64,000 bases of DNA, taken from Psychrobacter piscatorii (GTDB taxonomy: Bacteria > Pseudomonadota > Gammaproteobacteria > Pseudomonadales > Moraxellaceae). A program made the translations under genes and the position numbers. The notes beneath the pieces were generated by a model, which saw only the letters and a list, made by a program, of their open reading frames with translations, did not search any database and was not told the origin of the DNA. The stretch is from positions 62,001 to 126,000 of the forward strand of contig NZ_CAJHAR010000005.1 of assembly GCF_904846415.1 (NCBI RefSeq). Reading direction: 5' to 3'. Below are positions 1 through 11,494 of this stretch, piece after piece (position 1 is the stretch's first letter; every line of letters begins with the position of its first letter).

Positions 1-840
1 AACTACCTTTAATTCCTTTTAACTTTTTAACATGGCTTTAACCTGATAATTATCGCTGTAAGTCATGCGCTTACGATACTTGTCGCAAAACTACCTTTAA
101 CCTCTTTTTGAAACGGTTTTTATTTTGTGCGTGTGGATAGGGGCGGTGTCCTATGGTTTGCCTGTTTAATCTCGATTTATAGCCCCCCTTGATACCTGTA
201 CAGAAAGTCCTTTTTTATGGACTCAAGAAAGTCCCCCAGTCTTTTTATAGTAGTCCGAAAAACTGCTCTTTTTATGGACTCGAAGTATTATTTTGATTGC
301 CCTCTAAGATGTCCGAAAACTAGCCAGCATTGGTATAAACTGCACCCGTGCGCGTACTGTTCCCATAACTCTAACGTGTGTAATAACCTGCCTCGTACTT
401 GTTAAGAAACTACCCCTTTTTATGGACTCGCAAAAGTCCCTTTTATGGACTCCGAAAACTAGGTAACGGCAAGATTACGGCAAGGATTAAGCCAGCATTG
501 CGCGGTGTATTATTCGGTTTTGAATGTGAAGTTTTGTGAGGTTCTACTATGTGAGGATTCAGGTTTTCTCAGGTTCTTAATGACAGGTTTTGACAGGTTT
601 TAGCCTTGTGGTGATCTTGGGGTAGTCAGTGCTGCCAACGTTAACAAATGTTAACAGGCAAGGCGGTGCTATTCACTTTTCGATGTTAGGTTTTGTCAGG
701 TTTTTAATTCCGCATTTGAGGTGCGGAACGTTGGGTTTTATTGGGTTCTGCGATGTCCAAAAACCTAGGGGAAACCTTAGGGTTTCTTTACACTATAAAA
801 AGGGCTTGGCAGTGATCGCCTAACGTGTCCGAAAACTATG
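1..840. repeat. Non-coding repeat-rich end of the island (possible replication origin)
   Basis: No convincing gene is present. A 12-13 base unit ending TTTTATGGACTC occurs at about 212-224, 269-281, 417-429 and 440-452. Two copies are preceded by AGTCC, so that AGTCC and GGACT can pair as a short hairpin. A second unit, CCGAAAACTA or a close variant, occurs near 254, 313, 452 and 829. AACTACCTTTAA occurs at 1-12 and 89-100, and AGCCAGCATTG near 322 and 490. Perfect tandem copies of TGACAGGTTT lie at 581-590 and 591-600, with a variant at 694-703. Such clustered short repeats are typical of iteron or origin regions of satellite elements. That role is inferred from position and repeat structure only. 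Confidence 0.5.
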
Positions 841-1460
841 CTTCTCTATAATTTAATACGGCTATGGAATAGGGTTTTATCTGTGCGCCTTGTACTGTCT
901 GCTCATGCGTCAATTATCTAATGCTGCTAAATGCTCACCTCGTATCATGTGGTATTAAAAGATAGGCTCAAATCTGGGCGTATCTATTTAGGTTTACAGC
1001 CCCTTGCTAATTTGGCGTTAAAATTACCTCTTAGACCATACCTAATAAGCGTTTGCGCTTCATTCGTGTTTTAGTGATCCGTAAACACTGGTAAACCTAA
1101 ATCATGCTTAATACCCCCACCTTTGGGGTTATCTATAATCCGATACAGCCCTACTATAATTTAACCCTAAAATCACCTTATAGCCCGTGATTGGTAAGAG
1201 TTTGCGCTCCATTCACTTTTTGGCAGTTCGTAACTAAATAGTTAACTTAAACCACGCTCAATACGCGCAAAACTGCACCTATCTAATTTTTGACGGCTTT
1301 ATCCTGTTTTGGTGGCATCTATAAGCTGTAGGCTAATGATTGTAATGCTTTGGGCTAACGCTTATCCCATTGGGGGCTGGTGATCGGTAAAACGTGGTAA
1401 AAGTAATTGCACTGTTTGGCTGTGTGGTGATCTGCTCCATAAAGGTTTTAAACCTTAACA
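840..1460. repeat. Diverged tandem repeats of about 165 bp, non-coding
   Basis: Two diverged copies of a roughly 165-base block can be aligned by eye, about 965-1125 and 1130-1290. They share the order TACAGCCC, a TTAA-rich stretch, ATTACC/ATCACC, GTTTGCGCTYCATTC, a GTAA-containing stretch, and a CATGCTTAATAC/CACGCTCAATAC-like block. A partial third copy follows at about 1310-1425, with GTGATCGGTAAAACGTGGTAAA resembling GTGATCCGTAAACACTGGTAAA of the first copy. No long open frame runs through any copy. The repeats may be decayed duplicated DNA, a cis-acting replication or packaging region, or templates for a structured RNA. I do not recognise the family. Confidence 0.45.
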
Positions 1461-1514
1461 TTTATTAACATGCTGCCAGTGCTCAAACTGATCTCACAAT
1501 AAGCATCAGGCACG

Positions 1515-1541
1515 AAAAAAGGCAGACGTTAAACGGCTGCC
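1515..1541 (-). terminator. Rho-independent terminator after the antitoxin gene
   Basis: Read leftwards, GGCAGCCG and CGTCTGCC form a stem with a short loop, followed by a run of T. It lies about 40 bases past the antitoxin stop. Nearly the same hairpin recurs at 2310-2340. Confidence 0.7.
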
Positions 1542-1579
1542 CCCTTGTTTTAATTGCGCCTTTGCCGTTTTATTGCCGT

Positions 1580-1891
1580 TTACGCTTCTGCCAGTGGCTC
1601 ATGGCTGGCTTTAGGGGTCAAGGTCACTTGCAAGCCCATACCATCAATAATCTTTAGCATAGTGTCAAAACGTGGCTTCTCTGATCGCAATGTCTTATAA
1701 AGGCTTTCGCGTCTTATGCCTGTCTTTGCTGCCAGCTCGTTCATGCCCTTTGCTTTTGCTACATCATTTAATGCTTCGATAAACTCACTAGGTGCGCCAT
1801 CAGTCAATATTTCGTTCAGGTAAGCATTGATAAGGGTTTCATCTGTTAGATATTCCGCTACATCAAATCGGCTAGTTTTAATGTTAGTCAT
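1580..1891 (-). CDS. Type II antitoxin, HTH, HigA-like addiction module antidote
   Basis: A 103-residue protein with a helix-turn-helix of the addiction-module antidote family (TIGR02684-like) in its C-terminal half, with motif ELAAKTGIRRESLYKTL at about residues 54-70. It should bind and neutralise the toxin encoded just upstream and repress the shared promoter. The start chosen is the ATG at 1891, because AAGGAAC stands at good spacing before it and the start overlaps the toxin stop by 8 bases. A longer reading that begins inside the toxin gene is unlikely. Toxin-first gene order matches HigBA-type systems. It probably stabilises the island. Family assignment is firm; activity is inferred. 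Confidence 0.85.
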   Translation of the reverse strand: MTNIKTSRFDVAEYLTDETLINAYLNEILTDGAPSEFIEALNDVAKAKGMNELAAKTGIRRESLYKTLRSEKPRFDTMLKIIDGMGLQVTLTPKASHEPLAEA

Positions 1892-2210
1892 TGGGGTGTT
1901 CCTTTTCTTGATCCTTAACTTGCTGCCACAAGGTGCAAGCCTTAGAAATATCGTTTGTTTGGCTGTCTTTACTGCCACCTATCAACAATAGATAGAGGGT
2001 ATCGCCTTGCTTGGCATAATAGACACGGTAACCATTGCCTTTAAATATTCGCATCTCATAGATACCGTTTGTATTGGCTAATGGTTTATGGTCACCAAAG
2101 TTACCGCCTTGCGCTCGCTTGATACGTGCCAATATGCCAACTTTGCCTAACGGGTCTTTGAGCTTATGCAACCAACGTTCAAACTGTTCTGTTTGGTCAA
2201 TATTAATCAT
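1884..2210 (-). CDS. Type II toxin, RelE/ParE superfamily (HigB-like)
   Basis: A 108-residue protein of the RelE/ParE superfamily, in the addiction-module killer group (TIGR02683-like). It shows the basic core GKVGILARIKRAQGGNFGD, then YEMRIFKGNGYRVYYA, then LLLIGGSKDSQTNDISKA, the usual order for these ribosome-dependent mRNA interferase folds. It overlaps the antitoxin gene by 8 bases, so the two are translationally coupled. The ribosome binding site before the ATG is poor, which would favour antitoxin over toxin. Two direct GTAAACTT repeats lie in the promoter. Which RNA or partner it attacks cannot be read from the sequence. Confidence 0.85.
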   Translation of the reverse strand: MINIDQTEQFERWLHKLKDPLGKVGILARIKRAQGGNFGDHKPLANTNGIYEMRIFKGNGYRVYYAKQGDTLYLLLIGGSKDSQTNDISKACTLWQQVKDQEKEHPND

Positions 2211-2225
2211 AGGGGTAGATTATTA

Positions 2226-2251
2226 GTAAACTTATAATTTATTGTAAACTT
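2226..2251 (-). promoter_or_regulatory. Toxin-antitoxin promoter with direct repeats, likely operator
   Basis: GTAAACTT occurs at 2226-2233 and again at 2244-2251, 18 bases apart, flanking an AT-rich core that could hold the -10 of the leftward promoter. The position 16-41 bases before the toxin start fits an autoregulatory site for the toxin-antitoxin complex. This is inference from spacing and position. Confidence 0.4.
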
Positions 2252-2309
2252 TTGGATAATATATAACAAGCTATGACTGTGCTTGCTGTGTTGTTTATTG
2301 TTGATCCAT

Positions 2310-2340
2310 AAAAAAAGGCAGACGATAAACGGCTGCCTTT
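2310..2340 (-). terminator. Rho-independent terminator of the DUF927 operon
   Basis: Read leftwards, GGCAGCCG pairs with CGTCTGCC and is followed by a run of seven or more T. It separates the DUF927 gene cluster from the toxin-antitoxin pair. Confidence 0.75.
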
Positions 2341-2369
2341 GATTATTTTTGTCTGCATCTACTTTTGTG

Positions 2370-2575
2370 CATGGGACAGACGGGACAGACGGGACAGCCC
2401 TTACGTGGTATGGCTTACAGCCGTCCCGTTTATGTTTTTAGCAATGGGACAGACGGGACAGAAAAGTTAAAATGTAAAATCCTGTCCCGTTCGTCCCGTT
2501 TTGGTTTTTAGCAATGGGACAGCGCAATCCCTTGCTGCATATAGCCTGTCCCGTTCGTCCCGTTTGTCCCGTCCT
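2370..2575. repeat. Array of GTCCCGTY / GGGACAGAC repeats across the 3' end of the DUF927 gene
   Basis: GGGACAG-type units occur three times in tandem at about 2373-2397, again at 2446-2461 and at 2516-2522. Inverted copies (GTCCCGT) occur at 2423-2429, twice at 2484-2499 and three times at 2548-2573. The phrase TTTTTAGCAATGGGACAG is repeated at about 2435 and 2505. The array starts inside the coding sequence, where it encodes a DGTNGTNGTG tail, and runs about 135 bases past the stop. A set of short direct and inverted repeats beside a replication-type gene suggests binding sites for an initiator. That function is not demonstrated. Confidence 0.55.
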
Positions 2576-5006
2576 TTTTCATAGGTTCACAACAAAGTAT
2601 GTTAGCAGTAACCGCGTAAACAGACGGGCGGTGCTTGCCATTAAATAAAGTATCAGGCGTTTTGTAGATTTTACGGTCACCTTGATTGAGTAGTAACAAG
2701 TCGGCTTCCTCTAATACTTGTAAGACTTTGCTTTTGCTAAAAGGCGCACATACGCTGTTAAAAGTTTCTTTAGAAAAATAATAATCCCCCGTATCAGTAT
2801 TGCGATAGCCTACACGGTTGGGGGTTCTCTCCTCAAAGTCTAAGCGCGTGTTCCTATAACAAGGCTGAAAACGACTTGATCCGTGCTGTTCAATAAACGC
2901 CTTGATATGCTCTATGATTTGGCGCTGCTCATGCTCACCATCACGCCCATAGTTATCAAGCCAATTATCTAAGCAAGTCATCACGGCTGTAGTCGCTTGT
3001 CCTGCTTGCCAGCCTGTTATACCTGCCTGTGTTGCCAGCTCTCCAGCTGCGCTTACGATAGCGAACCGTTTAGCCACTCTATGCGCTTGTGCTGTCAGGT
3101 CGCTGTACTGGCTCATAAAGCTACTTACAAGCTGCCCAGCGTTGGCGGTGGTCGCTGCCTTGTCACTGGTGATATGTTCTAGCCATGCAATGCCAGCTGA
3201 TCCATAGTAAGCGTGTGACAGCTCTTTGATCCTGTCGGCTTGTGCTTCGCTTGTGTCTGCCAGTACCAAACTATCAAACGTTTTTAACCCTTTGCCAGCA
3301 TCAGCATCTATATGCGCCACTCGAACCTCAATACCTGCATTGGTTTTTTGTCCTGCTTGTGCCATGAAGTTTTGTAGCGACTCCTCACCATTAGACAGAA
3401 AGATAATGCGCCATGTTTTGGCTATGCGATTGTGTCCCGTGGTGGTGCTTCGTCCTTTACCTTGACCATTAGCCAGCATATAAACGGTTTTACCTACTAT
3501 TTTGGGATCACATTCGCTGATCTCATCAAGTGGCAGAAAACTGTCATTGTGCTCGCTTGCTGTGCCTTCTAGGGCATTGTCAGTGCTACGCCATGTCTTA
3601 ACGTACCTGTCAGGATTGCCCCATACACTAGCAGCCAATTTAAGCGATAATGACTTGCCCATGCTCGATGAGCCTAAGAGGTGAAAACCGCCCCCGTCAT
3701 ACTCTAATAATTCCAGTAATTGACCAGCGAACGCGCAAGCAATAGAGAAAACAAAACGGCTTTGATCGGCTAGGGGTTTGCACAGCTTATCGCGCCATTG
3801 ATCTAATGTGCCTTGCTGGATTAGGGTGCTGTTAATACTATTTGCAGACTGATAGACAATAAGCTGCTTACCATCGCTGCCTATGGCTCTGTCAGGTAAT
3901 ATATATTGCTTATCGTGCCAGCCCAGCTTATCCACGCATAACGCCCGTTTGTGGATAGGGTAGTTTTGAATATAGGTGTCTAAGTAATTGCGCTGTTTGG
4001 GGTTGGTGGTAATGTTCAATCCTTGACTAGCAAGCTCTTTGCGGTATTCCCTTGCATCGCCTTGCAGTAGTGATAACGGCATTGACCACGTATGTAGCAC
4101 GCTATCATCATCACGCCACTGTAATAACCGCCCCCATGTACCGCTGCTTGTGTCCCGTGTCTTAGCGATAACCTCTATCGGTGAACAAACAAACGCCTTA
4201 AACTTGAAAGTAATGTTTGCTGGGTCATCATCGTTATATTTCACAAAAAACAGCCCATCGTGGTAGAGCTCAAAACGCCCATCACTGTAGATCATTGGTT
4301 CATTCAGCTGTGGATCATCGCGCCATTCAGGATAGTAGGCAGTATCTTGTAAATTGATTAGCTGGGTGTCATCAGCTGCCAGTATCGCTTCATAGCTGTC
4401 ATGCTGCAGCATGGTGACGATATGAGCCACCGTAACCAATGCCTGAGCCTTTACACCTGCCAATAGGTTGATTAAACCCTTATCATCAAGCGTTATAGGT
4501 ACAGTTACTTGTGATCCGCTGCTCCAGTGCTGCACCATCTTTTTAAGGCATTGCTTGGTTTTGTGAGGGCTAATGATGATTGTTTTATCGCTGCCCATTA
4601 GGTAGCTGTAAACATCAATACCATCATCTATATTATCGAACGCTATCACCTCACTGGCTTTATTTGGCTCACCAATGACGATAGCGCCATACCCTGTAGG
4701 ATCAATGACAATGGGCTTTGCTTTACTGTTTGGTGTATAGAATACCGCGCCTACTATATCGCCTTGTTTGTCGTGCAAACGTAGGGCTATCGTGCCAGCT
4801 GTCGGTACTATTTGCGCGTCATCTGTAGTAAGATTGTCGGTAATACTTAGCAAGCTGTCAGGCGGTAGTAGCGCGATTAGCTTTGTCAAAGTAGGATCAT
4901 CTGCCAGCCCTTGCCGTGTGGCTGCATCAAAACTATTCATTACCACTGTAAAGCCTGTGCTAAATGCACGGGCTTTTTCATGGCTGTCTGTTGGTGTAGT
5001 GGTCAT
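2508..5006 (-). CDS. DUF927 domain ATPase, probable replication helicase/primase of the element
   Basis: An 832-residue protein. The central and C-terminal part fits DUF927, a P-loop ATPase family found in phages, satellites and integrative elements. Walker A is GSSSMGKS at about residues 445-452 and Walker B is SFLPLDE at about 489-495. The first 230 residues resemble the degenerate front part of primase-type proteins, but I see no clear TOPRIM acidic triad. The tail contains DGTNGTNGTG, encoded by the repeat array. The ATG at 5006 overlaps the stop of the preceding small gene (ATGA) and has AAGGGGG before it. It probably unwinds or initiates replication of the element. The family is well supported; the exact role is inferred. 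Confidence 0.8.
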   Translation of the reverse strand: MTTTPTDSHEKARAFSTGFTVVMNSFDAATRQGLADDPTLTKLIALLPPDSLLSITDNLTTDDAQIVPTAGTIALRLHDKQGDIVGAVFYTPNSKAKPIVIDPTGYGAIVIGEPNKASEVIAFDNIDDGIDVYSYLMGSDKTIIISPHKTKQCLKKMVQHWSSGSQVTVPITLDDKGLINLLAGVKAQALVTVAHIVTMLQHDSYEAILAADDTQLINLQDTAYYPEWRDDPQLNEPMIYSDGRFELYHDGLFFVKYNDDDPANITFKFKAFVCSPIEVIAKTRDTSSGTWGRLLQWRDDDSVLHTWSMPLSLLQGDAREYRKELASQGLNITTNPKQRNYLDTYIQNYPIHKRALCVDKLGWHDKQYILPDRAIGSDGKQLIVYQSANSINSTLIQQGTLDQWRDKLCKPLADQSRFVFSIACAFAGQLLELLEYDGGGFHLLGSSSMGKSLSLKLAASVWGNPDRYVKTWRSTDNALEGTASEHNDSFLPLDEISECDPKIVGKTVYMLANGQGKGRSTTTGHNRIAKTWRIIFLSNGEESLQNFMAQAGQKTNAGIEVRVAHIDADAGKGLKTFDSLVLADTSEAQADRIKELSHAYYGSAGIAWLEHITSDKAATTANAGQLVSSFMSQYSDLTAQAHRVAKRFAIVSAAGELATQAGITGWQAGQATTAVMTCLDNWLDNYGRDGEHEQRQIIEHIKAFIEQHGSSRFQPCYRNTRLDFEERTPNRVGYRNTDTGDYYFSKETFNSVCAPFSKSKVLQVLEEADLLLLNQGDRKIYKTPDTLFNGKHRPSVYAVTANILCCEPMKKDGTNGTNGTGYMQQGIALSHC

Positions 5007-5116
5007 CTAGTCCCCCTTGCTTGTGACTGGTTCGGCTTGCGCTGCTCTCTATATTTTTTATAGTAGCTTTTGCGCTTGGCGTGCTTACGGCTTTGCTTTG
5101 GTGGGTAGGTTTTCAT
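5003..5116 (-). CDS. Small highly basic protein, 37 residues, unknown
   Basis: Starting at the ATG at 5116 this frame encodes 37 residues rich in Lys, Arg and Gln (MKTYPPKQSRKHAKRK then SYYKKYREQRKPNQSQ), with no acidic patch, so it may bind nucleic acid. Its start overlaps the stop of the upstream gene and its stop overlaps the start of the DUF927 gene, both as ATGA. Such double coupling argues that it is really translated. A longer in-frame start at 5197 inside the upstream gene is less likely. No family is recognised. Confidence 0.5.
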   Translation of the reverse strand: MKTYPPKQSRKHAKRKSYYKKYREQRKPNQSQARGTR

Positions 5117-5697
5117 TGTTCGCCCCCCTTGCCGTAACGGGTCATTGCTAGGGTTTCTTTGATTGAACTTAACTGGCTTTGTAATAAGTCGTGCCACGTG
5201 TCAGTGGTGTCATGCGTTAAGCGTGCCATTGATATAGCAACATGAGTTTCTATTTTTTCATAGTGAATAAGTGCTAATAGTTTGCCAATGTCACTTATAA
5301 CAACGGCTGCGCTTTCAAGATCACAAGCAATATCTGATAACTCATGTGACGACATAATGATAACTTCGGTGTCATCTGCTTCGGTTATGTCTATTACTAT
5401 GCGTTGGCTGGCTTGGCTGCCCCTGTATAGCGTGGCTATCGCTTGGCGGTTGGCTGGCGTGTCGTGAAATAGTGAGGGTAAGACGTAGCAGTCATCATGA
5501 TAAGCCCTACCATCAGCGCGATATAGGCACTCAACATTGCCAATATTGATGGTTAGGCAGTCTTTTGACTTTTGGACTAGCTTATATGTGCCATTGCCCA
5601 CAGACGGACACAGAACGCTATCACCTGCCTTGAATGTGGCTGGTGCGCTGTTGGTAGTGGTTTGAGTGTTTGAGGTCGTACGGATTGAATTAGGCAT
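5113..5697 (-). CDS. Hypothetical protein, 194 residues
   Basis: Not recognised. After a Thr/Asn-rich start, residues 22-70 (FKAGDSVLCPSVGNGTYKLV and on) look like a small beta-rich domain with several Cys. The middle is acidic (DITEADDTEVIIM) and the C-terminal 80 residues are predicted mostly helical. AGGAGG stands five bases before the ATG, the best ribosome binding site in this cluster. The start overlaps the end of the gene before it, and the stop overlaps the 37-residue gene. It is co-transcribed with the DUF927 ATPase, so a replication or copy-control accessory role is possible but unproven. Confidence 0.7.
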   Translation of the reverse strand: MPNSIRTTSNTQTTTNSAPATFKAGDSVLCPSVGNGTYKLVQKSKDCLTINIGNVECLYRADGRAYHDDCYVLPSLFHDTPANRQAIATLYRGSQASQRIVIDITEADDTEVIIMSSHELSDIACDLESAAVVISDIGKLLALIHYEKIETHVAISMARLTHDTTDTWHDLLQSQLSSIKETLAMTRYGKGGEQ

Positions 5698-6220
5698 GAT
5701 AGCCTCCTGTTAATTTTTGAGTATGTGCCACGCTATACGGTAAAAGTATAGGGTGACGGGTCTTACTCTCGGTCTTAACAGTGACCGCCCCGCATATTCG
5801 CCCAAAGGCTATTTTATTTTGCAGCGTCAACCCGTCATAGTCGGTTAGCAAATGGTTTGCTATAGATATGATGGTTTGCCCCCTTGATGCGCTTAGGTGC
5901 GCTTGTGGGGCTATGCTTGAATGGATAGGGACAGCTTGAGAGGCTGCGCTATTATCAGGCACAAAAAAAGCCAAAGGTTTACGACTTGGCAAGTCGCTGT
6001 TAAGTTTTGAGAGGTCTATATAGTAACCGCTGCTATCATCGGTTGCAATCTGTTTTGGTTGTACTTGCTGGCACGCTACCAATGACAGTAGCAAGCCAAT
6101 ACCTGCCACCCATGCCATAAAGATAGTAAATCTTAGCAGTAAGCCACGTTTACCCGTCTGTTTGCGACTGTGCGCCCCGTGGTGGGCTGTTAGATTAGGT
6201 TTGGTATGGTTATCACTCAT
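5690..6220 (-). CDS. Hypothetical membrane-anchored or lipoprotein-like protein, 176 residues
   Basis: Not recognised. The first 28 residues are basic and polar. A hydrophobic stretch follows at about 28-48, ending LLSLVACQQ. LVAC fits a lipobox, so this may be a lipoprotein, although the charged leader is long and a plain membrane anchor is as likely. The rest appears soluble. GGAGG lies nine bases before the ATG at 6220. The gene overlaps the preceding gene by 8 bases and the following one by 8 bases. A surface or membrane protein in a replication cluster is unusual and may act in exclusion or host interaction, which is speculation. Confidence 0.6.
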   Translation of the reverse strand: MSDNHTKPNLTAHHGAHSRKQTGKRGLLLRFTIFMAWVAGIGLLLSLVACQQVQPKQIATDDSSGYYIDLSKLNSDLPSRKPLAFFVPDNSAASQAVPIHSSIAPQAHLSASRGQTIISIANHLLTDYDGLTLQNKIAFGRICGAVTVKTESKTRHPILLPYSVAHTQKLTGGYHA

Positions 6221-6488
6221 GACCTGTTACCTCCAACTCAGGCAGTAAGATAAGCCCGTCCATCTGTTCGCTTAAAATGGTTGCCAGCTCACTATTAGCG
6301 AGTAGGGCAGACCTTACAGCGACTATTACGCCCCTACTGGTGTCATCATCGGTATGGATAGCACTAAGCGCCATTGCTAGGCTCTCAGCATCGTGTGATA
6401 GGTCTTGTATGCGGTCATTAATGACAGACAGATAATAGCTATCTACTGCCACTAGGCGCGGTTCTAATATGTCGTTTGATTGGCTCAT
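6213..6488 (-). CDS. Hypothetical protein, 91 residues, helical and acidic
   Basis: Not recognised. The sequence is acidic and probably all helical (for example VINDRIQDLSHDAESLAMAL), with no Cys and no membrane segment. GAGGTG lies six bases before the ATG, which directly abuts the stop of the previous gene. It is part of the overlapping leftward run from alpA to the DUF927 gene. Small acidic helical proteins in such elements are often DNA-mimic or regulatory proteins, but nothing here proves that. Confidence 0.6.
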   Translation of the reverse strand: MSQSNDILEPRLVAVDSYYLSVINDRIQDLSHDAESLAMALSAIHTDDDTSRGVIVAVRSALLANSELATILSEQMDGLILLPELEVTGHE

Positions 6489-6776
6489 TTAGTTCACCTC
6501 ACTGTTAGATAGTTCGCTTTCAAGTAATGTCTGCTCATCAAGCCAATAGACCGAAAACCGCTTGTCATTGTGCGTGACTATCTCGCTTTGAATGGTTAGC
6601 CCTGCGGTTCTCAGGTCATGTATGCGCTGTGCTAAGCATGTGATCTGATAAAGGCGGTAAGCGTCCCATGTGGTAATGGTTGCGCCTGTCATCAGGTGTG
6701 CTCTAACAGTGTCAATCTGTGTCTTAGGTGCTGGCTCATTGGTCACTGGGGCGGTGGTGGTTGCTGTGGTCATCAT
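6489..6776 (-). CDS. Hypothetical protein, about 95 residues, winged-helix-like
   Basis: Not firmly recognised. The order of segments, IDTVRAHLMTGATITTWDAYR, a helix with LAQRIHDLRTAGLTI, and ITSE-like strands ending KRFSVYWL, matches the helix-turn-helix proteins of phages that begin with a gain-of-function helix and end in a beta wing. The ATG at 6776 is preferred over an upstream in-frame start at 6836. It follows the alpA stop by 4 bases and has GAGG at the right distance. A regulatory role is inferred. Confidence 0.55.
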   Translation of the reverse strand: MMTTATTTAPVTNEPAPKTQIDTVRAHLMTGATITTWDAYRLYQITCLAQRIHDLRTAGLTIQSEIVTHNDKRFSVYWLDEQTLLESELSNSEVN

Positions 6777-6780
6777 GGCT

Positions 6781-7071
6781 CTATACCTCGCTTGTGGTTG
6801 AGGTGTGAGAATTAAGCCATTCGTGAACGTCTGCATAGCTCCACGCTGTCATGGTAGGGCTTAGCTTTCTGCCAGCTGGGAAACGCCCGTCCTTGCTCCA
6901 TTCAAACAAGGTGGTTTTGCTAAAAGGTAAGAACGGCAAAATGTCCTTTGCTCTGCCCATACCAGTAGTAGGCAGTTGCATAGCTGGACTGTTTGCGTTG
7001 GTTGGTTCGGTATCGTGCAAGGTGTTATCAGTAAAAGGAATTACTGGGGTGTTTTGGGTTGGGTGTGTCAT
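6781..7071 (-). CDS. alpA: AlpA family transcriptional regulator
   Basis: A protein of about 96 residues whose C-terminal half carries the AlpA/excisionase-type winged helix: ILPFLPFSKTTLFEWSKDG, then RFPAGRKLS, then WSYADVHEWL. AlpA proteins of P4-like elements activate or control excision and the early operon. The start is set at the ATG at 7071, because GGAG stands nine bases before it. A GTG at 7086 would place that site inside the gene. It heads the leftward cluster that ends with the DUF927 ATPase. Four GGGGT repeats lie in the upstream 140 bases. Confidence 0.8.
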   Translation of the reverse strand: MTHPTQNTPVIPFTDNTLHDTEPTNANSPAMQLPTTGMGRAKDILPFLPFSKTTLFEWSKDGRFPAGRKLSPTMTAWSYADVHEWLNSHTSTTSEV

Positions 7072-7129
7072 TGTGTGTAGCTCCACTAAATGACGCTACG
7101 GCATGTAACGTCCAGTGGTTCTACTTTAG

Positions 7130-7205
7130 GGGGTGGGGTTATTTGCAGCACCCTAGCTGGGGTGAAGTCACGCCCTAAATGGGGTATGAGTTTATTTTGG
7201 GGTGG
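7130..7205. promoter_or_regulatory. GGGGT repeats in the alpA upstream region
   Basis: GGGGT occurs at 7135-7139, 7159-7163, 7181-7185 and 7199-7203, spaced about two helical turns apart, between the coiled-coil gene and alpA. CACCC and GGGGTG near 7150-7164 also form an inverted repeat. These may be regulator binding sites for the alpA promoter. This is inference. Confidence 0.3.
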
Positions 7206-7223
7206 TGTCTAATCATGGTTATA

Positions 7224-8249
7224 TTATTTCTTTTTTGCATCACTCAAAATAGAATTAGCATCACTAAAGCGAGTTTCTAAAGTGCTTTTACCTTGTCCGT
7301 ATATTCCTTTATCTGTAATTTCACTAATAATGACTGCTTGGCTTGAAAATGGTTGTTTATGGTCAATTCCTTTAGGCGTGACCATCAATTCTAATAATAA
7401 GCCTATGGTAGTCTGATAGCTTTTTTCGGTACGTTCACTCAATTGTTGATAGTCACCAGCTGGCTTGTCTGCCAGTGCTGCATTAGCTTGTGCTAATTGG
7501 TTCTCAAGGTCTGATATTCTTTTTTCTGCTACCTGTTGAGTTAAAGCTGTCTTTTTCTTTGTGCTTTCAAAGTTGCGTTTGCAGTAGTCGTAATCTGACT
7601 CAAGATTTTTATAATCTACTGATAACTTATCTAACTCATTTTTGCATTTGTCTAGCTGCTCTCTACTACTTTTATATAGCTTCTCTCGGATTTCGTAAAG
7701 AGCTTCAGGTGATCCTTTCTTGTTGAATAGTTCTTGATATTGAGCTTTGAGCTTCTCGTTATCAGCTCTCAATATATCGTATTCTTTAGGCAAGCCTTGA
7801 TAGAATGCTAACTCGTCACCCTCGCTTGTGTAGTCTGCATCTGTTATATCGGGTGACTCAGTATTAAATATTATTTGTTCAGGTATCTGCATACCTAAAT
7901 TAACTAGCTGTTCTACAAATCTCTTTTTGCCAAAACCTAGCTTATAAATTGGACTGCCTGTTCCAATACCTTTATGGTCGATACACTCTTTTAACTCATG
8001 AGTAATAGACTCAAAAGTAATATAGGGTTCGCAAGTTGATTGCTCGTAACTACTGCATACATACACGGCTTTGACTGAGTGTGGGGTAATCAGTAGTAAA
8101 TAAGTCTGCTTTCTTAGAAATGAGCTTGTTACAAGTTCAAAGGCTTCTTGTAGAGTGCCTTTGCCATGTTCTGATACAAAAGAAACGCTATCAAAAATTG
8201 ATATGAACTGTTTATCTTTACGCTGTTTTTGTTGTTCAAAAAAACTCAT
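7224..8249 (-). CDS. Coiled-coil protein of unknown function (island cargo)
   Basis: A protein of about 341 residues. The first 130 residues form a globular part with hydrophobic strands (TYLLLITPHSVKAVYV). The middle, from about 160 to 270, is a long charged coiled coil (EYDILRADNEKLKAQYQEL and on to RISDLENQLAQANAALA). The C-terminal 70 residues are again compact. The ATG at 8249 has AAGGTG seven bases before it; a GTG at 8267 is less likely. Base composition looks more AT-rich than the neighbouring genes. Its place between int and alpA is a common site for variable cargo, including defence genes, in satellites. Function is unknown. Confidence 0.65.
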   Translation of the reverse strand: MSFFEQQKQRKDKQFISIFDSVSFVSEHGKGTLQEAFELVTSSFLRKQTYLLLITPHSVKAVYVCSSYEQSTCEPYITFESITHELKECIDHKGIGTGSPIYKLGFGKKRFVEQLVNLGMQIPEQIIFNTESPDITDADYTSEGDELAFYQGLPKEYDILRADNEKLKAQYQELFNKKGSPEALYEIREKLYKSSREQLDKCKNELDKLSVDYKNLESDYDYCKRNFESTKKKTALTQQVAEKRISDLENQLAQANAALADKPAGDYQQLSERTEKSYQTTIGLLLELMVTPKGIDHKQPFSSQAVIISEITDKGIYGQGKSTLETRFSDANSILSDAKKK

Positions 8250-8370
8250 GTTCACACCTTTACACACCCTTAATTCAAAATAGGTGCAAGGCAGTGCCAG
8301 CCTAAAGGTGTGTGAACGGCTGGCTTTCGGGTAATTAGTCCTAGCCTTGCATAGTTGTTACAGCATGGTA

Positions 8371-9612
8371 TTAGCCATGCTTTTGTGTTTGTTGTTTGAA
8401 GTCTGCACGGATCACATTATCCATCTTGCCAGCATAAGCATTATCAATGAAGTTCGCCCATTCATTCATCATCTTGGTTCTATAGGGTAAATGCTGCGCT
8501 CCGTTGTATGCCTTGCTGATCTTGTTTTCTTTCTCATGTGCTAGCTGTAGCTCTATCGCTTCGTGCATATATTCCTGTTCATGTAGGGTAGTGCTGGCAA
8601 GTCCACGGAAACCGTGCCCTGTCATACGCCCTTTATAACCCATGCGCCATAGGGCAGTGATAAAAGCATTGGTACTGTATGGCTTACGGGTCGAGGGATT
8701 AAAGAAAACGTATTGATCCGAAAAACCTAGCGCCTTGATCTGCTCCAGTATCGCCATTGTTTGCGGTGCAAGTGGTACTAGGTGCGGTCTATCCATTTTC
8801 ATTTTATCAGATGGTATGCGCCACAGCTTATCTTTGTAGTCTATTTCTGACCATTCCATGAACCTAAGTTCCTGAGTACGCACAAACGTATAGCATAAAA
8901 ACCATAAGCCCAGCTTCACCAGTAGATCACCATCATAGGCGTTAATGTCTTGAAGTAGTTTAGGTAGTTGCTGGCTGGTCACACGGCTATGGTGCTTCAC
9001 CTTATGCGGTTTTAGTGCTTCGGTTAGGTCGGTGGCTGGGTTGAGGTTGGTTAAGCCTTCACGTATGGCTTGTTTGAATATCTGCCCCGTTTGACGCATT
9101 GCACGCCTTGCCATATCACTAGCGCCCCTCGCTTCGATAGCTTTACCGATAGCCAAAACATCAGGCGCGGTTATGTCCTCTATATTCATGTGACCAATGA
9201 CGGGCTTAATATCGCGCTGGTACTGTGAATAGTCACGGCTATAGGTGGTAGGGGCTATGTGTGCTTTGCGGTCATCGTGCCAACGCTGGGCTATAGTATC
9301 GAACGCCCTTGATCCGTCATTGTCTGCTTGTGTCTTTTTCTTATCGTCTTTTGGGTTGATACCATCAGCTATTAGTCTTTTGATCTCAATATTGCGCTGT
9401 CGTGCATTCTGTAGGCTCATTACTGGGTAAGTGCCAATAGTGAGGGTTTGCTGCTTACCTTGCCAGCGGTAGGCGCTGATCCATGACTTAACGCCCGTAT
9501 AACGCACCCATAATTGAAGCCCGTTACCATCACTATGTTTATCAGGTCGCTTTGTATCAATCGAGGTGGGGCTAGGGGCTAGCTTGTTGATACTGGTATG
9601 GGTTAGGGGCAT
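8371..9612 (-). CDS. Tyrosine recombinase, P4-type integrase
   Basis: A 413-residue integrase of the P4/CP4-57 type. An arm-binding domain of the DUF4102 type covers about 1-90 (LTIGTYPVMSLQNAR), a core-binding SAM-like domain about 105-185, and the catalytic domain about 210-385. Catalytic residues are visible: Arg245 (VRTQELRFMEW), His333 and Arg336 (GHGFRG), His359 (LAHEKE) and Tyr369 (KAYNG). The gene starts 165 bases from the 3' end of tRNA-Pro and points away from it, the usual layout for tRNA-targeting integrases. It should catalyse integration and excision of the island. All active-site residues are present, so it may be functional. Confidence 0.95.
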   Translation of the reverse strand: MPLTHTSINKLAPSPTSIDTKRPDKHSDGNGLQLWVRYTGVKSWISAYRWQGKQQTLTIGTYPVMSLQNARQRNIEIKRLIADGINPKDDKKKTQADNDGSRAFDTIAQRWHDDRKAHIAPTTYSRDYSQYQRDIKPVIGHMNIEDITAPDVLAIGKAIEARGASDMARRAMRQTGQIFKQAIREGLTNLNPATDLTEALKPHKVKHHSRVTSQQLPKLLQDINAYDGDLLVKLGLWFLCYTFVRTQELRFMEWSEIDYKDKLWRIPSDKMKMDRPHLVPLAPQTMAILEQIKALGFSDQYVFFNPSTRKPYSTNAFITALWRMGYKGRMTGHGFRGLASTTLHEQEYMHEAIELQLAHEKENKISKAYNGAQHLPYRTKMMNEWANFIDNAYAGKMDNVIRADFKQQTQKHG

Positions 9613-9626
9613 GGGGTCTATCCTTT

Positions 9627-9675
9627 GTTGGTATTGTCCATGTTGGTATTGCTCGATACCAACAATAATACCAAC
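9627..9675. repeat. Four GTTGGTAT / ATACCAAC repeats between int and the tRNA
   Basis: The 8-base unit GTTGGTAT is found at 9627-9634 and 9642-9649, and its inverse ATACCAAC at 9656-9663 and 9668-9675. Two forward and two inverted copies form a symmetrical cluster just upstream of int. Arm-type integrase sites or an autoregulatory operator are the likely roles, inferred from position. Confidence 0.55.
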
Positions 9676-9736
9676 ATTCTATATGGAACGCCATACACCT
9701 ACAAAGTGGTGAAAACCTGAAAAACGCCCAAAATAA

Positions 9737-9765
9737 AGGGCAGACGGTCTATGACGGTCTGCCCT
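9737..9765 (-). terminator. Terminator of tRNA-Pro, leftward
   Basis: AGGGCAGAC and GTCTGCCCT form a 9-base perfect stem, followed leftwards by TTTATTTT. It lies a dozen bases past the tRNA 3' end, inside the inserted element, so the element probably supplies this terminator. Confidence 0.7.
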
Positions 9766-9776
9766 AAATCTATGTT

Positions 9777-9853
9777 TGGTCGGAACGGCAGGATTTGAAC
9801 CTGCGACCACTACACCCCCAGTGTAGTGCGCTACCAGACTGCGCTACGCCCCG
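9777..9853 (-). tRNA. tRNA-Pro (anticodon GGG), island attachment site
   Basis: The leftward strand gives a complete 77-base cloverleaf. The acceptor arm CGGGGCG pairs with CGTTCCG (two G-T pairs), followed by ACCA with encoded CCA. The anticodon stem CTACA/TGTAG holds the loop CTGGGGG, which gives anticodon GGG (Pro). The T arm contains GGTTCAAATCC. The integrase gene begins just past the 3' end, which marks this tRNA as the insertion site. The 3' part of the gene is expected to be repeated at the other end of the element, but no such copy was found in the window. Confidence 0.95.
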
Positions 9854-9967
9854 AGTGACTGACTATTTTACGCAAAATTATGTATATTGCAAGGGCTATT
9901 TATATCAGCCAAAATCTACCACATTATTCTACGCATTACAGTCAGCTTCTCTACTGCATAGGGAGTG

Positions 9968-11494
9968 TTAACCCAACAGCTCTTTTAGAATTTGGTTCAC
10001 TTGCTGCGGGTTAGCACTACCGCGGCTGGCTTTCATGACTTGACCGACCAGACCGTTAAAGGCTTTTTCTTTACCACCGCGATATTCTTCAACCATCGCT
10101 TCATTTTTTGCGATGACTTCTTCGACCATTGCTTTGATAGCGCCAGTATCGGTCTCTTGCTTGAGGCCTTTTTCTTTGATGATCTTATCTGCGGCATCAT
10201 CATCGTTGCCGCCTTCACGCTCATATAGCGCACTAAAGACTTTCTTGGCCAGTTTGCCAGATAGCGTGTCATCTTTGATACGCTTAAGCATACCAGCCAA
10301 TTGCTTGGCGCTGATAGGAGAGTCGACAATATCTTTATCATCTTTGTTGAGAGCACCAAGTAGATCGCCCATCACCCAGTTGCCAGCCATTTTGGCATCT
10401 GCTTGCCCAACTTCTGCGACCACAGCTTCAAAATAATCAGCAATTTGACGACTACCAGTCAAGATACGAGCGTCATATTCTGACAGACCAAGCGCTTCTT
10501 CAAAGCGTGCGCGGCGAGCGACTGGCAGCTCTGGCATTGCTGCTTTGATCTCATCAACGGTATGTTGCTCGATACGGACAGGTAGCAGATCAGGATCAGG
10601 GAAGTAGCGATAGTCGTTGGCGTCTTCTTTGGTACGCATGGTACGCGTTTCGTCACGCTCTGGATCATATAGCATGGTTGCTTGTACGACTTTGCCACCA
10701 TCTTCTAGGATATCGATTTGACGTTCGATTTCACGATTGATAGCACGCTCGATAAAGCGGAACGAGTTTAGGTTTTTCAGCTCAGTACGTGTACCAAGAT
10801 CAGCGCCTGGCTTGCGCACAGAGACGTTACAGTCACAGCGGAATGAGCCTTCGGCCATCACGGCGTCTGAGATACCTAGCCACGTGACCAGCTGATGAAT
10901 GGCTTTGATGTAGGCAAGTGCTTCGTGAGCTGAGCGCATGTCTGGCTCAGAGACGATTTCGATTAGTGGCGTGCCAGCACGGTTGAGATCGACACCCGTC
11001 ATACCATCGACGGCATCATGTACCGATTTACCGGCATCTTCTTCTAGATGCGCGCGAGTGATACCCATACGTTTAGGGTATTCGTTCTTTTCACCTTCAT
11101 TAACCACGACATCGATATAGCCAACGCCTACGATAGGATTGGCCATCTGGGTGATTTGATAGCCTTTAGGCAGGTCAGGGTAAAAGTAGTTTTTGCGGTC
11201 AAAGGTATTGAACAAACCTAGCTCAGCATTGACGCCGATACCGAATTTTAGCGCGCGATCGACCACACCAGCATTTAGTACGGGTAATACGCCAGGCAGA
11301 CCCAAATCAACGATACTGGCTTGGCTGTTTGGTTCATGACCAAAGTCAGTCGGCGCACTTGAGAATATTTTACTTTCTGTATTTAGCTGGCAGTGAATCT
11401 CGATACCGATGACCACTTCATAGCCATCGACAAATAGCTCTTTACGCACAGCGTGTTCACGGACGGCATTGTTATCAGTAGTAGCTGTACTCAT
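9968..11494 (-). CDS. gatB: Asp-tRNA(Asn)/Glu-tRNA(Gln) amidotransferase subunit B
   Basis: A 508-residue GatB, slightly longer than usual. The N-terminal cradle begins with [23 protein letters not shown], followed by [20 protein letters not shown] and later the [12 protein letters not shown] motif. A C-terminal YqeY-like domain ends the protein. GatB binds and activates misacylated Glu-tRNA(Gln) or Asp-tRNA(Asn) for transamidation by GatA. It is the last gene of gatCAB; its ATG overlaps the gatA stop by one base (TAATG), indicating coupling. The product acts in the cytoplasm. Confidence 0.97.

Follow-up and report, generated by a model that had tools for sequence, protein, structure and literature searches.

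We wanted to investigate why a cluster of short repeats starts inside the coding end of a DUF927 gene of Psychrobacter piscatorii and continues beyond its stop codon, and what function such a cluster may serve. The whole analysed stretch, called the window below, comprises 64,000 nucleotides. An earlier note on this DNA had counted about a dozen copies of GTCCCGT/GGGACAG in both orientations, and our count agrees with it: GGGAC/GTCCC is present 39 times in the 64-kb window, and exactly 12 of these sites, six on each strand, are located at 2373-2570. Together they form a 12-site iteron array (2371..2572) of the 9-mer ACGGGACAG. We observed that the sites follow the order >>><>><<><<< with the spacing 9-9-32-23-9-29-9-23-32-9-9, and that the six mirror pairs have a common centre at 2471.5, exact to the base. 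Both the order and the common centre had been overlooked in the earlier note.

One half of the array consists of an outer triple on the plus strand (2373..2395, GGGAC at 2373, 2382 and 2391), an inverted single site on the minus strand (2423..2427) and an inner pair on the plus strand (2446..2459, GGGAC at 2446 and 2455). The other half is composed of an inner pair on the minus strand (2484..2497, sites at 2484 and 2493), an inverted single site on the plus strand (2516..2520) and an outer triple on the minus strand (2548..2570, sites at 2548, 2557 and 2566). The last two elements lie within the DUF927 ORF, and the triple encodes GTNGTNGT. The six sites on either side flank an AT-rich centre of 20 bp with 15% GC (2462..2481), a candidate unwinding element. 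The array spans -64 to +137 relative to the DUF927 stop, with four of the 12 sites inside the ORF and eight past it, and the coding part is translated as DGTNGTNGTG in the tail of the protein; that the array runs past the stop and that its coding part reads so had been observed before and was confirmed.

When up to two mismatches were allowed, GGGACAGACGGGACAG had six matches in the 3.5-Mb genome, five of them in the array. Same-strand pairs of sites 9 bp apart were found four times in the array region and at most once in 60 shuffles. The phrase around TTTTTAGCAATGGGACAG, already reported as duplicated about 70 bases apart, is a 31-nt direct repeat (94%) with copies 70 bp apart. The growth by duplication that had been suggested explains little, since the 70-bp repeat fits the mirror plan as sites 4-5 and 8-9 of the symmetric array. 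Beyond the array a terminator-like hairpin with a T run was recognised by eye on the minus strand (2310..2337), and it has counterparts in Psychrobacter relatives. The promoter/terminator scan reported no terminator, this hairpin included; it gave four promoter-like sites, compared with 1.1 expected.

The gene that the array overlaps (2508..5006, minus strand) encodes 832 amino acids, with the DUF927 domain at residues 245-528 (E = 2e-89). A profile built from 23 relatives matched, up to E = 1, two solved proteins: 8tch, which is SaPIbov1 Rep (8e-32), and 5dgk, which is SCCmec Cch (1e-21). The AlphaFold2 model had a mean pLDDT of 75 and its N-terminal third was poor; in a comparison with known structures it was aligned over residues 225-807 with 5dgk (Z = 29.7) and 8tch (Z = 26.7), the next fold matches being MCM proteins (Z = 13.8). 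The putative initiator is thus, by homology of sequence and predicted fold, similar to self-loading helicases of the SaPI Rep/Cch type. A winged-helix-like domain at its C-terminus (approximately residues 713-805; 2592..2870, minus strand) is the candidate reader of the sites. It is followed by tail codons that overlap the array (residues 810-832; 2511..2579, minus strand), and this tail is predicted to be disordered (pLDDT < 50). Among the relatives, the DUF3987 proteins of loci L038-L055 have a helicase domain of another Pfam family and share the first ~236 residues with the protein of the window, which looks like the result of an exchange of the N-terminal part.

The gene and the array belong to an island of approximately 10.2 kb, placed at tRNA-Pro (ggg) between 24-bp direct repeats. 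One repeat is located at the 3' end of the tRNA gene (9770..9793), and the second copy lies outside the window, 473-450 bp to the left of its first base. The island contains a tyrosine integrase with an arm-binding domain (8371..9612), an AlpA-type regulator/excisionase (6781..7086), an HTH_39 winged-helix protein (6489..6836), small unknown proteins, the DUF927 gene, the array and a Gp49/HI1420-type toxin-antitoxin-like pair, all genes being on the minus strand. This is the layout of a PICI: int, alpA/xis and a gene of the pri-rep type between att sites, with a single direction of transcription. Families of phage interference, TerS, capsid or terminase were not found in ten island proteins scanned against Pfam or in eight scanned against PHROGs, four small proteins being barely or not annotated. 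TerS is optional in PICIs. Since no capsid or terminase family was recognised among the scanned proteins, PICI-like describes the layout and not a proven use of a helper phage. The toxin-antitoxin-like pair (Gp49/DUF891 with a HI1420-type antidote) occupies 1580-2210, between the array and the left end. In L017, the stretch behind the array is the same as the one upstream of this pair in the window. At the left end of the island, positions 1-1580 and further past the window start, we recognised no gene and observed repeated ATGGACTC and GTCCGAAAACTA phrases.

An array immediately 3' of its initiator gene is the arrangement of the rep-ori module of PICI/SaPI-type islands. We consider it highly probable, on the comparisons described here, that the array serves such an island as its origin of replication. 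A role in replication or binding had been raised in the earlier note, and this is now the best-supported reading. The array differs from a classical iteron plasmid origin of the RepA/RepB type. Such origins have direct iterons of approximately 17-22 bp; the sites found here are of approximately 7-9 bp with six on each strand, and the gene beside the array is DUF927, with no Rep_3 match in the ten island proteins scanned. The proposed check by GC skew did not single out the array: the skew does not turn there, its minimum being at 4694 and its maximum at 9651, although this measure is uninformative for a 10-kb integrated island.

Further, we analysed how widely the arrangement is kept. We found a relative at E = 1e-20 in 65 of the 249 family genomes. 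We gathered 230 loci and dropped two, L030 and L151, with no stop in the locus, which left 228 loci in 148 clusters. Whole loci were scanned blindly for a 5-mer present in both orientations around one mirror centre. The mirror score exceeded 15 in 85 of the 148 clusters, in 82 of them at most 420 bp from the helicase stop and in three elsewhere, compared with 4 of 456 shuffled loci; when the score was required to exceed that of all shuffles, 46 of the 228 loci were left. A strict template of the six-site half, >>><>> with fixed spacing ranges, was matched in 63 of the 148 clusters and nowhere in 5.37 Mb of shuffled DNA. An array was found by either method in 103 clusters, and by neither the mirror scan nor the half template in the other 45.

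The exact order >>><>><<><<< was present in 25 of the 88 clusters with a score of at least 15 near the stop, with nine 7-mer cores (CGGGACA, TGGGACA, GGGGACA, GGGAACA, TGTGACA, GTGGACA, GGTTACA, GGTAACA and GGCAACA). As a universal rule the mirror order did not hold: ten of the 88 clusters, including most of the E. coli/Klebsiella-type DUF927 set, have >><<<<<>><<<, which is not an exact mirror, and the rest have other or incomplete orders. The analysis of order kept at most 12 sites per array; when this limit was removed and one mismatch was allowed in 14 arrays, ten of them had 12 sites, three had 13 and one had 11. DUF3987 relatives have arrays with other cores in 14 of 17 clusters, and in one of them, L048, five mirror pairs are exact, the inverted single included. 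Mean GC over the 25 arrays was 0.29 in the centre and 0.41 in the other gaps. In Acinetobacter relatives of the L148 type no array was observed at the end of the gene; groups resembling half-arrays of GTTAC lie approximately 1 kb further on, in L148 as two tandem copies ~180 bp apart (~6950-7200).

Among the 25 exact arrays, four lie fully inside the ORF, 14 span its end and seven are placed wholly past the stop; the order is shared by all and the spacing is similar. Since the geometry is the same in all three positions and the tail is predicted to be disordered, it seems to be the DNA layout that is conserved and not the peptide. The simplest explanation of the GTNGTNGT tail is that it is a by-product of an origin that reaches into the ORF. 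As for the idea that the same DNA has a coding and perhaps a binding role, the double use of the DNA is real and looks one-sided. Related genes with a different tail and no repeats, yet with functional replication, had been named as the case that would speak against this idea; in many relatives, genes lacking the tail have the repeats behind the stop instead.

It is also conceivable that the array acts as a hairpin, a DNA cruciform or a long stem in the 3'-terminal part of the RNA, which would be read as a structure and not site by site. The array strand folds at -99.8 kcal/mol (mean of shuffles -58.9, z = -9.3), eleven other arrays fold far better than their shuffles, and in L036, L102 and L120 the symmetric spacers are complementary at 0.37-0.46, compared with 0.25-0.28 by chance. 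However, the mirror order of one motif alone generates such folds, and the majority of spacers lack pairing across the mirror. Outside the sites and their edges, complementarity in 12 arrays was 0.314 versus 0.261 by chance, the seven CGGGACA arrays were at chance, and only one of 27 non-core pairs had changed on both sides. Moreover, related DUF927 elements have a non-mirror order, and an Rfam scan of positions 1-10000 detected no family besides tRNA. We consider a hairpin function unlikely.

Sites of an operator or partition type, bound by the helicase or by a regulator of the island and serving control of transcription or segregation while replication starts elsewhere, would agree with the location of the array at the end of a transcribed operon, before the hairpin recognised by eye, and with the lone halves of five Legionella loci described below, 670-710 bp upstream of the gene, a position suited to control. 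Against this, the tested EcCICFT073 replicon is a match for twelve evenly placed sites around an AT-rich centre behind a self-loading helicase, and none of the ten island proteins that were scanned was identified as ParA/ParB-like. We regard this function as very unlikely. Neutral or selfish expansion of repeats in a disordered tail by slippage and duplication, to which the 9-bp units that preserve the frame and encode GTN repeats and the similar spacers of the 70-bp repeat would point, is hardly credible, as the geometry persists in the seven arrays wholly past the stop, all six pairs share one centre and the sites are conserved above the spacers (97% versus 84% identical columns in the seven CGGGACA arrays).

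Site cores and C-terminal domains were compared in 42 proteins, one per cluster, with 11 cores, the core labels being assigned by hand. For pairs with helicase identity of at least 85%, mean C-terminal identity was 0.80-0.92 with the same core and 0.53-0.54 with different cores; in the range of 85-93% it was 0.80 (n = 56) and 0.53 (n = 74), respectively. The covariation statistic was reached by none of 2000 shuffles of labels. Below 75% helicase identity we did not observe any link between core and C-terminal domain in these 42 proteins. There were also exceptions, namely 17 same-core pairs with C-terminal identity below 0.65 and eight different-core pairs above 0.7. An example is provided by Psychrobacter, in which L007 and L011 have helicases 94-96% identical, C-terminal domains only 57% identical and the cores CGGGACA and TGGGACA, whereas L007 and L008 have a common core and C-terminal domains 90% identical. 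Since the array and the C-terminal domain are adjacent in the DNA, transfer as a block, or linkage, would yield part of this covariation.

A narrower comparison was possible in Acinetobacter, with ten proteins, five with GGTAAC and five with GGCAAC cores. L159 and L251, almost the same as L034, were left out, as were the more distant L035, L075 and L255 of the GTAAC type, whose C-terminal domains differed too much for an alignment of the wing. The ten helicases are not grouped by core; L240 (GGTAAC) is 93% identical to L160 (GGCAAC). This answers part of the objection of linkage. Among 473 variable columns, five split the two cores fully, and four of these (residues 784, 793, 794 and 797 in L066 numbering) lie in a 14-residue wing; equally good splits of five to five were obtained in two of 126 divisions, the true one included. 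Three of the ten proteins were added by a later search and fit the pattern of the first seven. We state the rule of the wing for that clade, as L255 has R and not K at the last of the four positions. L240 and L160 differ as GGTAAC versus GGCAAC at nine aligned sites, with spacers 71% identical, and between L155 and L034 the core is switched at ten sites, with spacers 53% identical; the core is thus switched throughout an array whose remainder can still be recognised. In the L240 array, which lies after the DUF927 stop, one outer copy reads GGGCAAC, possibly a leftover of an earlier core. From these comparisons of sequence, the C-terminal winged helix probably reads the sites.

We also observed arrays whose halves are separated. 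In L185 a half >>><>> (9-9-55-23-9) is located at 239-351 and its exact mirror at 5740-5850, 5.5 kb apart. The halves are located at 1240 and 5711 in L111 and at 77 and 6495 in L113, and in both of these loci they are near-identical inverted repeats of approximately 90 bp. In all three loci the inverted six-site halves, 4.5-6.4 kb apart, flank the replication genes. L113 encodes a protein resembling the terminase small subunit, and in L185 a phage portal gene is adjacent. In Legionella L105, L106, L112, L116 and L132 a lone >>><>> half precedes the DUF927 gene by ~670-710 bp, and all of these except L132 have a site group of different order and spacing right after the stop. Judging from the split and lone halves, the half-array looks like the unit.

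In summary, these results suggest the following course of initiation at the putative origin. The C-terminal winged helix of the helicase would bind each site, and both >>><>> and its mirror image would collect six subunits. A pair of helicase rings facing each other would then form, the AT-rich centre would melt, and replication of the excised island would begin there. That two hexamers assemble, one on the six sites of each half, is an assumption we lean towards by a little. As a broader proposal, which we put forward tentatively and find slightly more doubtful than convincing, the origins of DUF927, DUF3987 and D5/DUF5906 islands may follow one blueprint, in which two mirror halves of six sites, fixed to a few bp, each land one ring. 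The core and a short C-terminal wing would co-evolve as a specificity code and switch through nearly all sites, and some half-pads may lie kilobases apart, flanking replication genes, each half being a working unit.

If true, this would provide a blueprint, at the level of base pairs, for placing self-loading helicases of phage satellites on DNA, and one open to tests with short synthetic DNA. Six sites per half make the idea of two hexamers directly testable, and the near-minimal switch pair from Acinetobacter, with helicases 93% identical and different cores, may help to understand how the specificity of an origin-binding domain shifts together with a dozen sites. It is also relevant to whether islands can share each other's origins or exclude them. 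Origins of PICI/SaPI islands are already known as a kind. The exact mirror geometry, the overlap with coding sequence and the covariation of core and wing seem to be new, and in the open-licence literature we found no account of the geometry, the overlap or the core-wing link.

Comparison with known systems places the locus as follows. The protein resembles SaPIbov1 Rep and SCCmec Cch as a DUF927-type self-loading helicase, a likeness between proteins; unlike in SaPIbov1, the island here is that of a Gram-negative bacterium and the putative origin overlaps the ORF. The alpha protein of P4 is a primase-helicase with a C-terminal origin-binding domain that uses short iterons; its cis sites ori and crr are separate and it is not of the DUF927 type. 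By description, the two-site layout of ori and crr resembles the split halves of some relatives. Pairing of iterons with an initiator is a known case in geminiviruses, where short iterons are reported to differ among close relatives and to be read by the cognate Rep (PMC12548392); these, however, are ssDNA viruses with rolling-circle replication and unrelated proteins. The C-terminal domain of SCCmec Cch2 binds direct repeats beside the helicase gene, at a putative origin, and the account describes three AAGTG iterons rather than a mirror of twelve sites, and a protein of the Primase_Cterm type (PMC7581432).

The closest system is EcCICFT073. As reported for this element, iterons in two sets flank an AT-rich region, and a plasmid with the rep-ori segment is maintained in DH5-alpha; delta-rep and delta-ori served as controls, and delta-ori differed (PMC6092414). 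We matched the tested segment by gene order to a 289-bp gap 3' of the PICI pri-rep gene of E. coli CFT073. This gap contains 11 GGTAGA sites with the spacing 9-46-22-11-9-31-11-22-46-9, mirrored and with an inverted single per half; a twelfth site, detected only when one mismatch was allowed, is off the mirror. The initiator is D5_N/DUF5906 and not DUF927, the core is GGTAGA, the halves are >>< >>> versus >>>< >> in the window, and the array lies wholly past the stop. Nevertheless, the iterons of both islands are located directly 3' of the initiator gene and follow a near-identical mirror plan.
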